From positions 3,065,501 to 3,129,500 of the forward strand of contig NC_014365.1 of the NCBI RefSeq assembly GCF_000143965.1: a stretch of 64,000 nt of DNA, written 5' to 3'. The notes beneath the pieces were generated by a model. The model did no database searches. It worked only from the letters and a program-made list of their open reading frames with translations, and was not told where the DNA came from. This DNA is from Desulfarculus baarsii DSM 2075 (GTDB taxonomy: Bacteria; Desulfobacterota; Desulfarculia; Desulfarculales; Desulfarculaceae). Below are positions 36,939-45,078 of this stretch, piece by piece; the stretch's first letter is position 1, and the number at the start of each line of letters is the position of its first letter. The translations under genes and the position numbers were made by a program.

Positions 36939-37661
36939 TCATCGCGGGATGTTGGCCAAGGGGCGTTCGGCCACGTGGACCCAGGCCACGCCGGCGGTCA
37001 GGGCGTGGGAGCGGGCGGCGATCAGGCCGGCGGCGGCCATTTCGCCCCGAAATTCGGCCGGGCTGGGAAACTCCATGATCGTCTCGGCCAGATAGCGATA
37101 GCTGGCCTCGTCGCCCGAGATCAGCCCGCCGACGCGCGGCAGCAGATGGCGCAGATAACGCAGATAGACCCGCCGCACCCAGGCGCTCTGGGGCGTGGTG
37201 AACTCCAGGATGTAGACCCGCCCGCCAGGGACCAGCACCCGCCCCATCTCGGCCATGGCCTGCCGGCGATCGGGGATGTTGCGCACGCCAAAGGCGCAGG
37301 TCACGGCGTCGAAGCTCTGGTCGGCAAAGGGCAACAGCGTGCCATCGCCGGCCAAAAGCGCCACCCTGGCCCCGCTGGCGGCGCACTTGCGCCGGGCCGG
37401 GCCCAGCATGGCCGGAGTCAGGTCCAGGCCCACCACCAGCGGTCGCTCGGGCCGTTTGGCCACGGCCAGGGCCAGGTCGCCGGTGCCGGTGGCCACGTCG
37501 AGCACGCGGCCGGTGGGCCCCAGGCGCAGGGCCCGGGCCACGAAACGCCGCCAGCGGATGTCCTCACCCAGGCTAAGCACGTGGTTTAGCAGATCATAGA
37601 CCGGGGCCACGCGGCTGAAGATGCCCTTGACCTGTTTGATCTGGGCGGACGGGTCTCTCAT
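36939..37661 (-). CDS. ubiE: demethylmenaquinone methyltransferase UbiE/MenG
   Basis: A 240-residue SAM-dependent C-methyltransferase making menaquinone from demethylmenaquinone (or the ubiquinone intermediate). 'VKGIFSRVAPVYDLLNHVLSLGEDIRWRR' split by its helix matches the family N terminus. 'VLDVATGTGDLALAV' is the SAM loop, 'FDAVTCAFGVRNIPDR' is strongly diagnostic, and 'GGRVYILEFTTPQ' and 'YRYLAETI' follow. ATG 37661 overlaps the stop of the DUF6178-like gene as ATGA. As an anaerobe the host probably uses menaquinone. Confidence 0.93.
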   Translation of the reverse strand: MRDPSAQIKQVKGIFSRVAPVYDLLNHVLSLGEDIRWRRFVARALRLGPTGRVLDVATGTGDLALAVAKRPERPLVVGLDLTPAMLGPARRKCAASGARVALLAGDGTLLPFADQSFDAVTCAFGVRNIPDRRQAMAEMGRVLVPGGRVYILEFTTPQSAWVRRVYLRYLRHLLPRVGGLISGDEASYRYLAETIMEFPSPAEFRGEMAAAGLIAARSHALTAGVAWVHVAERPLANIPR

Positions 37662-39406
37662 TTTTCCACCACCAAGCTGGCGATGAAGCGCGGATCGACC
37701 TTGCTGGCGTCGACGGCGGCCAAATCGCGTTGGATGCGCCCCAACACGCCGCGCAGCAACTGCCCGGCCATCTCGGCCTTGGCCGGATCGGCCAGGGCCT
37801 CCACCGACTCGGCGGCCCGCCGCTCGCGCCACTGGGCCAGGCCCCGTTGCAGGGCGGCCACGGCCCGGGGGGCCAGCGCGGCCGGGATGGGCCACAGGCC
37901 GCTCAAGCCCAGTTCGCCGCGCGCCAAAAACGTGCCGACAACGGCGGTGAGCTTGAGCTCCAGCGGTTGGTGGCCCCTGGCCAGTTCGGGGCTGAGTTGG
38001 GCCAGTTGGTCGATCGCCACGCCCATCAAACCCAGCAACTCGCCCCAGAACTCGGCCAGATCCAGGCCGCGGCGGGCGTGCTCCAGGTCGGCCTGATCGC
38101 GAAAACCGCGATATTCGCGGCCATCGCCCATCAGTTGATCATAGCAGCGGGGGTGCGGGAAGAGCAGCCCGGCCAGCCAACGATCCAAGGGCTCGTCGAG
38201 GATATGCAGGCCGCCGGGGGCCTGGGCCAGCCAGCCCTCGTTGACCAGGCGCCAAGCGCGGGCGTTGAGTTGGCGGATGGCCTGGGCCCCTTGCCGGGCC
38301 AGGGCGGCCAAGCCCAGGCGTTCGAGGATCTGCCCGGCCACGGACCGGTCGCCGTCGGACAACAGCTCCAGGCCCAGGTTGACCAGGCCCACGGCCTCAC
38401 GGCCGGCCCTGGCCACGGCTTCCAGATCGGTGGGATCGACGTCCAGGGCCATCACCCCGCAGTTGGCCACGTAGGCCAGCTCGGCCCGCAGGCGGTCGCG
38501 CGCGCCCTGGGGCAGGGCGCGGGCCAGGGCCGGCAGGGCGTGATCACGGGGCAGCAGGTTGAGCGCCGCGTCGGAGCGCGGCGGCGCATCGGCCAGAAAG
38601 CCCGTCTCGCCCTTGGTGGGCAGGGCGCGCCAAGCGGCCTCCTTGGGCGGCGGCGCGGCCCATAGCTCCAGGGCCTCGGCGCGGCTGGGCATGCCCAGGT
38701 CGGCCAGACGGCCGGCGCGCAGGATCAGGGCGTCCTCGGCCATGCCGATGGCCGACTCCCAGAGCATGGCCTCCAGGATTTGCGTGTAGCGATCGGGCGT
38801 CTGGCTCTTGAGCACCACCAAGACCTGGCTGGCGTAGTCTTGCATGTCCTTTTGGCGAAACTCGATGAAATAGACGCCATCGAGCGTGAAGCCGGGCAGA
38901 TCGTCGGGCGGCTCCTGCTCGTCGTGGCTGGTCAAAAACTTGACCACCCGGAACCAATGGGCGAACAACAGCGCCAGCACCTCGACGTCGGTCTGCGCCA
39001 GCCAGCGGGCGATGCGCTCGGCCCCGGCCTCGACGATGGCCGGCAGCCAGAGCTGATAGCGCTGGGGCCAGAGGCGCTCGCCTTGCCAGCCGGTGATGTC
39101 GAGCAGATAGGCCAGTTGATCGTCGGTGCTGGCGGCGACGAGGGCGTCGGCGGCGTCTGGGCCCACGTCCAGGGTGGTGGCCAGAAACTCGTCGGGCGGC
39201 AGTTGGCGCACCAGCGTATCGGCGTCCTGGGCCAGGACGATCAGGCGCAGGCGCTCGGAGCCCTGGCAGGCCAACACGGCGCGCAGGCGCTCGGCGCGGC
39301 TCAGGCCGTGCCAAAACGCCTCGGCCCGACGCGGGTCGCGGGCCTCCAGGCCCAGGATTTCGCGGGGATTTTCCAGCAAACGCTGGACGTTGGCCTGATC
39401 ATTCAT
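37658..39406 (-). CDS. DUF6178-like protein
   Basis: A 582-residue cytoplasmic protein without catalytic motifs that I can name. It consists largely of alpha-helices rich in Leu/Ala ('LLENPREILGLEARDPRRAEAFWHGLS', 'ETGFLADAPPRSDAALNLL', 'FWGELLGLMGVAIDQLAQL'). The content and the neighbour resemble the DUF6178 family found beside radical SAM genes in deltaproteobacteria. GGGAGAG precedes ATG 39406, whereas the longer frame adds a low-complexity N terminus. It overlaps the radical SAM gene by 8 nt and ubiE by 4 nt, so the three proteins are probably made together. Confidence 0.65.
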   Translation of the reverse strand: MNDQANVQRLLENPREILGLEARDPRRAEAFWHGLSRAERLRAVLACQGSERLRLIVLAQDADTLVRQLPPDEFLATTLDVGPDAADALVAASTDDQLAYLLDITGWQGERLWPQRYQLWLPAIVEAGAERIARWLAQTDVEVLALLFAHWFRVVKFLTSHDEQEPPDDLPGFTLDGVYFIEFRQKDMQDYASQVLVVLKSQTPDRYTQILEAMLWESAIGMAEDALILRAGRLADLGMPSRAEALELWAAPPPKEAAWRALPTKGETGFLADAPPRSDAALNLLPRDHALPALARALPQGARDRLRAELAYVANCGVMALDVDPTDLEAVARAGREAVGLVNLGLELLSDGDRSVAGQILERLGLAALARQGAQAIRQLNARAWRLVNEGWLAQAPGGLHILDEPLDRWLAGLLFPHPRCYDQLMGDGREYRGFRDQADLEHARRGLDLAEFWGELLGLMGVAIDQLAQLSPELARGHQPLELKLTAVVGTFLARGELGLSGLWPIPAALAPRAVAALQRGLAQWRERRAAESVEALADPAKAEMAGQLLRGVLGRIQRDLAAVDASKVDPRFIASLVVEK

Positions 39407-41826: not shown

Positions 41827-42168
41827 CTAGCAGCAGCCGCCGCTGCCGCAAGAGCCCGAGCTGCAATCGCAACTTCCGCCGCCCATGGGCCGGGCGGTGG
41901 TCAGCGTAAAGCCCTGCTGGCCGTTGTCGTCGATGAAATCCAGGGTCACGCCCCCGGTCATCACGCCCAAGCCCTTGTCGATCAGATAAGTCTGGCCGTC
42001 GACCACCACCTGGTCGTCGGTTTCCAGCGTCTCCTCGTCGACCCGCAGGCCCAGCGAAGGCCCGCAGCAGGAGCTTTGGTTCAAGAACACGCGCAGGGGA
42101 GAAACCAGGTTCTTCTCCTGCATGAAGTCGCGAACTGCCTTGCTCGCGCTGGGGGTTACCTGCACCAT
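41827..42168 (-). CDS. HesB/IscA-like protein (Cys form)
   Basis: A 113-residue member of the HesB/IscA superfamily associated with iron-sulfur cluster assembly. 'VTPSASKAVRDFMQEKN' leads into 'LRVFLNQSSCCGPSLGLRVDE', where C34 matches the first conserved Cys of the family. 'DGQTYLIDKGLG' and 'LDFIDDNGQQGF' follow. The usual C-terminal C-x-C is replaced by a Gly/Ser/Cys tail 'CDCSSGSCGSGGCC'. It is the Cys paralogue of the gene 127 bp upstream, which has an in-frame TGA at the same position. It belongs to the HesB-like subset (TIGR01911-type), not to housekeeping IscA. Confidence 0.85.
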   Translation of the reverse strand: MVQVTPSASKAVRDFMQEKNLVSPLRVFLNQSSCCGPSLGLRVDEETLETDDQVVVDGQTYLIDKGLGVMTGGVTLDFIDDNGQQGFTLTTARPMGGGSCDCSSGSCGSGGCC

Positions 42169-42248
42169 GGCGTCGATCCTTTCTCGCGCCGGCCGCCGGG
42201 CCGCGGCCCGATGACGCGCTCATGTTGGTTTTGCCTATAAGTTATATC

Positions 42249-42292
42249 GCGACAACCAACGCCATGGCAATCGCCTAGCGGCGTTTTGTCGC
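42249..42292 (-). terminator. hairpin after the HesB-like selenoprotein gene
   Basis: GCGACAA/TTGTCGC (42249-42255 with 42286-42292) and an inner AACGCC/GGCGTT, with a 2-nt bulge. There is no T-run beyond it, so termination strength is uncertain. Confidence 0.35.
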
Positions 42293-42294
42293 CC

Positions 42295-42633
42295 TCAGCA
42301 AGAGCAGCTCCCGCCCGAATCACATCCGCCGGAGCATCCGCCGCCGCCGTCCAGGGGCATCGCCGAGCTGACCATGAAGCCTTGCTGCCAGCCGTTGTCG
42401 ACGAAATCCACCTTCACGTCGCCGCTCTTTTGCGCCAAATCCTTGTCGATCAGATAAGTCAAACCGTCGATGTCGTAGCTGTCGTCAGTGTCTTTTGGTT
42501 CGTCCAGAACCAATCGCAGCGACGGCCCGCCTCAGCCGCCAGATTGCAGGTAAACCCGCAACGGCGACGCCAGACTGCGCTCGCTCATGAAGGCCTTGAT
42601 GGCCTTGCTGGCGCTCTCGGTCACTTCAACCAT
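42295..42633 (-). CDS. HesB-like selenoprotein (in-frame UGA = Sec34)
   Basis: A 112-codon gene from ATG 42633 that is interrupted only by TGA at 42534-42532. Read through it, the protein aligns without gaps to the Cys paralogue at 41827-42168: 'SPLRVYLQSGG-U-GGPSLRL' against 'SPLRVFLNQSS-C-CGPSLGL', so residue 34 is Sec where the paralogue has Cys. The frame continues with 'DIDGLTYLIDKDLAQ' and 'FVDNGWQQGF' and a Cys-rich tail 'CSGGCDSGGSCSC'. A hairpin 18 nt after the UGA fits a bacterial SECIS. HesB-like selenoproteins with Sec at the family cysteine are an established class. A pseudogene or sequencing error is the alternative, but the conservation downstream argues against both. Confidence 0.85.
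42495..42513 (-). promoter_or_regulatory. SECIS-like hairpin
   Basis: In the mRNA the perfect 7-bp stem UUGGUUC/GAACCAA (42513-42507 with 42501-42495) has loop UGGAC. It begins 18 nt after the UGA codon, within the distance used by bacterial SECIS elements that bind SelB. It is located in the coding sequence, as usual in bacteria. Confidence 0.65.
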
Positions 42634-43806: not shown

Positions 43807-45078
43807 ATGAGCATTTTCAGCCGCTACATCGAATGGGCCATTCCCGAGCAAATCAAGACCGACGTCGATCTCTACAGGCGCGCCCGCCAACTGGTCACCT
43901 TCACCATGATCGCGCCGCTATTTTTTATCTACAACGTCATCAAATGGTTCAACCTGGGCAGCGCGACCCTGGCCGTGTCCATGGCCATCGTGGGCCTGGT
44001 GGTGACGCTGGTGCCGTTGGTGCTGCGCCTGACCAAATCCTTCGCGGCCATGGGCAACCTCATCTTTCTGGCCCTGGGCTGGCACTTCGCCATCCTGCCC
44101 TATTTCACCGGCGGCATTCATTCCAGCGCCCTGACCTGGAACCTGATCATGCCGGCCCTGGTGGCCACCTTCATGGGCATGCGCAGCTTCATGTTTTGGT
44201 CGCTGGCCATGATCGCCGAGATGATTCTGTTCATCGCCATCGACAAGGCCGGCATCCCCTTGCCCACCATTCATCTGACCGAGGCCCAGGCCACCCAGGC
44301 CCTCATCGCCAACGTCATGGGCCCCCTGCTGGCCATCGCCATCACCATGTACTTCAATATCAAGGGCTTCCAGTTCGCCTTCGGCATCCAGGGCCAGGCC
44401 TTGGAGGCCCAGAGCGCCGCCCGCCGCGAGCAGGAACAGGCCGCCGTCCAGTTGGAGCAGCTAAACGCCAACCTGGCCGCCATCTTTGAAAAAGTCGGCG
44501 AGACCACCAACCGCCTGGCCACCAACACCCTGAAGGAAATGGCGTCCATGACCCGCCAAAACGCCGCCAGCGCCGAACAAGCCGACCAAATGATGAAAAA
44601 TTCCGGGCAAATAGTCCAAGCAGCCAGCCAATCCATGGACCAGCTCACCCTGTCCATGGACGAGATCACCAAGGCTAGCGCCCAGACGGTCAAGATCATC
44701 AAGACCATCGACGAAATCGCCTTCCAGACAAACCTCCTTGCCCTCAACGCCGCCGTGGAGGCAGCCCGAGCCGGCGAGGCCGGCGTGGGCTTCGCCGTGG
44801 TGGCCGACGAGGTGCGCAACCTGGCCCAGCGGGCCACCGAGGCGGCCAAGAACACCGCCGGCCTATTGGAGGGCACGGTGCAAAAAATCCGCGCCGGCTC
44901 CGAGCTCGTTTCGCGGACAAATCAGGCCGTGGGCCAGGTGGCCCAGACCGTGGGCGGCGCCAGCGCCTTGCTGGACCGCATCGCCGTGGCCTCCCATCAG
45001 CAGGCCCAGGGTATCGAGGAGATCAACCAGGCCGTGGCCGAGATGGACCGCATCGTCCAGGAAAACGCCCTGCGCTGA
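43807..45078 (+). CDS. methyl-accepting chemotaxis protein with multi-pass membrane sensor
   Basis: A 423-residue chemoreceptor. The first ~190 residues hold about six hydrophobic helices (roughly 31-48, 54-74, 81-100, 110-128, 129-147, 165-184) with only short loops and no periplasmic domain. The signalling domain follows without a HAMP domain and includes the conserved hairpin tip '[26 protein letters not shown]' (around residues 316-340), which binds CheA/CheW. ATG 43807 has AGGGGG upstream and is preferred to the longer frame. Sensing probably occurs in or near the membrane. No C-terminal CheR/CheB pentapeptide is present. Confidence 0.9.

Follow-up and report, generated by a model that had tools for sequence, protein, structure and literature searches.

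An IscA/HesB-family gene of Desulfarculus baarsii with an in-frame TGA codon, probably read as selenocysteine, and its tandem cysteine-containing paralogue

The analysed stretch of DNA, referred to here as the window, comprises 64,000 nucleotides of the Desulfarculus baarsii DSM 2075 genome. On its minus strand lies a 112-codon HesB/IscA frame (42633-42295), which starts with ATG (42633-42631) and ends with C-S-C-TGA, the final codon being located at 42297-42295. When the frame is read through its only internal TGA, which is codon 34 (42534-42532), a coding sequence of 112 amino acids is obtained (42298-42633), and the product matches the NF038090 and PF01521 models. The earlier note on this DNA had described a single TGA in an otherwise normal HesB/IscA-like frame, and both the description and the coordinates were correct. 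It had also stated that conventional gene calling truncates the gene, and standard ORF calling indeed gave only a fragment of 72 amino acids with a TTG start (42513-42295). The probability that the UGA is a stop codon and that a 72-amino-acid protein is made from TTG 42513, as the automatic ORF listing would have it, is close to nil. In such a protein the first strand and helix, and with them the N-terminal third of the fold, would be missing, and the codons upstream of the TGA are conserved through the ATG. The terminal TGA was also considered as a site for a second selenocysteine (Sec) and rejected; orthologues have TAA, TAG or TGA as the stop codon at the corresponding position, and this codon is regarded as the true stop. 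The window was scanned for other in-frame TGA codons flanked on either side by coding-like base composition, which returned only one more candidate, at 44273 on the minus strand. It is antisense to a chemotaxis-receptor gene and was judged spurious.

The protein scored 125.5 bits against the NCBIfam profile NF038090 "IscA_HesB_Se" (cut-off 85) and covered the model over its full length (positions 1-101 of 101); the short name of this model marks selenium. The Pfam domain PF01521 (Fe-S_biosyn), which is shared with the A-type carriers IscA, SufA and ErpA, was passed narrowly (27.2 bits against a gathering threshold of 26.3). The protein differs from these carriers in its scores, which lie far under the model cut-offs (41.9 bits against 150.6 for the IscA model TIGR02011, and well below for SufA and ErpA), in the replacement of the first cysteine by Sec, in its Cys-rich tail and in the lack of isc or suf genes among the neighbouring genes tested. 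The earlier note had expected the gene to belong to TIGR01911 (HesB_rel_seleno). This did not hold, as the protein reached only 38.7 bits against a cut-off of 66.35, which was passed by none of 60 relatives, and NF038090 takes the place of that model. The best match among solved structures was 1s98, "Protein yfhF", which we take to be the IscA of E. coli, and codon 34 aligned with the first cysteine of its chain. In IscA, this cysteine is one of the metal or cluster ligands. The residue is also cysteine in the tandem paralogue, which agrees with the placement of the UGA on the conserved cysteine proposed earlier.

HesB-like selenoproteins are an established class, as the earlier note had said and as the existence of the NF038090 model indicates. 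They were catalogued by Zhang and colleagues in 2006, with members in Syntrophobacter, Syntrophus, Desulfovibrio and Geobacter (PMC1794560), and a 2026 review lists them with TIGR01911 and the motif UxGP (PMC13188914). The Desulfarculus protein shares this motif, since its Sec34 is situated in U34-G-G-P; TIGR01911, the model listed for the class, is the one that it does not pass. No difference was found between the gene and the other members of NF038090, and a tandem Cys paralogue, as present here, also occurs in various relatives. No publication was returned when the literature was searched for Desulfarculus baarsii in combination with selenoprotein.

The internal TGA is not peculiar to this genome. 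It is kept at codon 33-35 in 22 further aligned genes from relatives in the family and the class. In a draw of 297 genomes from the phylum, 124 had a match above the NF038090 cut-off, and the best of these mostly carried exactly one internal TGA, as here; Desulfocarbo, Desulforhabdus, Syntrophobacteraceae and Desulfobacula are among the named loci. A lone TGA in a frame that otherwise has the character of the Cys family, beside a paralogue that is intact, is what would be expected of a recent nonsense mutation or of a misread TGC or TGT in a gene whose function has been taken over by the Cys twin. However, many relatives, sequenced independently, have TGA at this codon too, with full-length flanks on both sides, and this conservation practically rules out an error of sequencing or a nonsense mutation of recent date. 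The explanation by a pseudogene or an error is therefore very improbable. Two further arrangements were observed among the relatives, namely two tandem copies with an in-frame TGA in both (L009:984-2112) and a family match with two internal TGA codons (G278:C66:233-529).

The machinery for Sec synthesis and insertion was searched for in the whole Desulfarculus baarsii genome, a single contig of 3,655,731 bases, and all the components whose presence the earlier note had proposed to check were found. A tRNA-Sec with the anticodon TCA was detected above the Rfam cut-off (72.8 bits), and SelA (607 bits), SelB (406 bits) and SelD (376 bits) are encoded, the last with an in-frame TGA of its own in AAGUAAKIGPGDL. 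There are also two copies of formate dehydrogenase (FdhA) with the Sec motif CARTUHAPT, whose alpha-subunit genes are near-identical (L152, G000:C1:2345758-2347764, and L153, G000:C1:549267-551273). A third FdhA-like frame (L154, G000:C1:560061-561734) has cysteine at the Sec position (GRACLAP) and, close to where the match ends, an in-frame TAG that is probably an ordinary stop. On these matches the genome is judged able to make selenocysteine.

In bacterial selenoprotein genes, the UGA is followed shortly 3' by a hairpin with a G early in its apical loop. Such an element is found here on the minus strand at 42513-42495, 18 nt after the UGA, as UUGGUUC-UGGAC-GAACCAA, with a 7-bp stem (42513-42507 paired with 42501-42495) and the loop UGGAC (42506-42502). 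The sequence, position and spacing of the SECIS-like hairpin given in the earlier note were thus right, but folding of this one sequence did not distinguish it from chance (z = -0.39; 65 of 200 shuffles fold as well). At Rfam gathering scores no SECIS match was found in the window, a result of little weight, given that bacterial SECIS elements vary from gene to gene. The support for the hairpin comes from the comparison of relatives. Across 37 distinct sequences the distance between the TGA and the stem is constant, 88% of the alignment cells are paired (14-53% when the partner strand is slid), and the covariation score is 0.189, as compared with 0.116 +/- 0.012 for shuffled alignments, and exceeds all six slid controls. 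Two stem pairs are invariant in this set, and only one, pair 26-36, changes on both sides, being C-G in 18 sequences and U-A in 18. The outer two pairs are not conserved; the perfect 7-bp stem claimed for this gene exists here, but the element is generally one of about 5-6 bp.

Copies with TGA and copies with Cys were also contrasted. Of 49 distinct TGA copies, 48 have the inner four pairs together with the UGGA loop, a combination that is absent from all 18 Cys copies, and the Val/Ala codon of the stem ends in T in 48/49 and 3/18, respectively; the Fisher p-values for these contrasts overstate the case, since the sequences are related and the counts are not independent events. The sole TGA copy examined with a broken inner stem (L097:4097-4147, GCC for GCT) possibly has a weaker or altered SECIS. 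The retention of the hairpin with TGA and its absence with Cys also speak against a decayed gene. The stem codes for a conserved protein motif, (V/A)LDEP, and the hairpin could in principle reflect a constraint on the protein or on codon use only, the UGA being translated as a different amino acid or passed by ordinary read-through. Against this, the switch between U-A and C-G corresponds to Val (GTT) or Ala (GCT) on one side and to the synonymous codons GAA or GAG on the other, and the codons go together almost without exception (GTT with GAA in 14 of 15, GCT with GAG in 33 of 33). The preference for a T-ending codon in TGA copies, the presence of tRNA-Sec, SelA, SelB and SelD in the genome and the cysteine at codon 34 of homologues in the alignments made point in the same direction, and this explanation is exceedingly improbable. 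The fit to a bacterial SECIS proposed in the earlier note was borne out by the compensatory change and by the presence of the hairpin with TGA and its absence with TGC/TGT. Decoding of the UGA as Sec34 in an IscA/HesB-type, A-type Fe-S carrier-like selenoprotein is, on the comparison of sequences, almost certainly the correct reading.

Downstream of the Sec gene lies a tandem Cys paralogue (41827-42168, minus strand; 87.1 bits against NF038090), in which SSCCGPSL replaces the SGGUGGPSL region and the hairpin is missing. Its alignment with the Sec gene was described as gap-free; this is true around codon 34 (SGG-U-GGPSL against QSS-C-CGPSL), but there is one gap elsewhere. The paralogue was likewise correctly placed, except that the spacer measures 126 bp (42169-42294) and not 127 bp. 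Many genomes have Sec and Cys copies in tandem, the Sec copy usually being the first of the two; such pairs were noted across the phylum in the window (41827-42633) and in loci L018, L021, L024, L129, L131, L132 and L134-L140. An adjacent pair of cysteines at or beside the Sec position was seen in the Cys copy of the window (codons 34-35, 42069-42064) and in L021, L135 and L137, which belong to separate lineages. When the Sec/Cys label was traced on a tree of 66 copies, 11 changes were required, of which well-supported branches force at least nine, and several Cys copies cluster with the copy beside them in their own genome; the tree has only 103 columns and long branches, including that of the window's Cys copy, gene conversion is possible, and the sample was chosen partly for having Sec/Cys pairs. 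The pattern suggests repeated duplication with a change from Sec to Cys and several independent origins of the pairs. Recurrent local duplication may have produced isozyme pairs that depend on selenium, with the Cys protein active under selenium shortage or both proteins acting together, but this is rather doubtful. The 126-bp spacer that precedes the Cys copy was scanned for sigma-70-type promoters and for terminators and yielded neither pattern; because no promoter pattern was found there, a selenium-dependent switch can be named only as a possibility. The literature, not searched specifically for such a switch, yielded no description of one for the IscA_HesB_Se family.

As to the mechanism, the hairpin, located 18 nt 3' to the UGA, would recruit SelB carrying Sec-tRNA(UCA), and SelB would decode the UGA so that Sec enters at position 34, which in related proteins is occupied by the first metal- or cluster-ligand cysteine. 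Insertion of Sec at this codon is what we infer from the sequence. Sec34 and the Cys-rich tail of the protein (CSGGCDSGGSCSC) may then form a metal or Fe-S site, and the protein would take part in the handling of iron or of Fe-S clusters. In the predicted structure the core is confident (most of residues 1-95 with high confidence) and the tail, part of this putative site, is disordered (pLDDT < 50 for residues 97-112). The neighbouring genes tested, which encode a radical SAM protein, a PrmA-like methyltransferase, a DUF6178 protein and a chemotaxis receptor, gave no hint at the function of the Sec protein. The radical SAM gene, which contains PF19864 (39399-41399, minus strand), adjoins the gene for the DUF6178 protein of unknown function (37658-39400, minus strand; 513 bits).

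Summarizing, the comparisons indicate that the Desulfarculus gene is an ordinary, real member of a known selenoprotein family, ordinary rather than surprising because databases already recognise this family as selenoproteins, and it changes nothing in known selenoprotein biology. Since NCBI has a model named for the group, its current annotation probably recognises the gene. The locus is a clean and well-supported case for gene-call correction, in which a 112-amino-acid protein is missed if the UGA is taken as a stop, and the tandem Sec/Cys pairs are natural side-by-side comparisons of what Sec adds to an IscA-like site.
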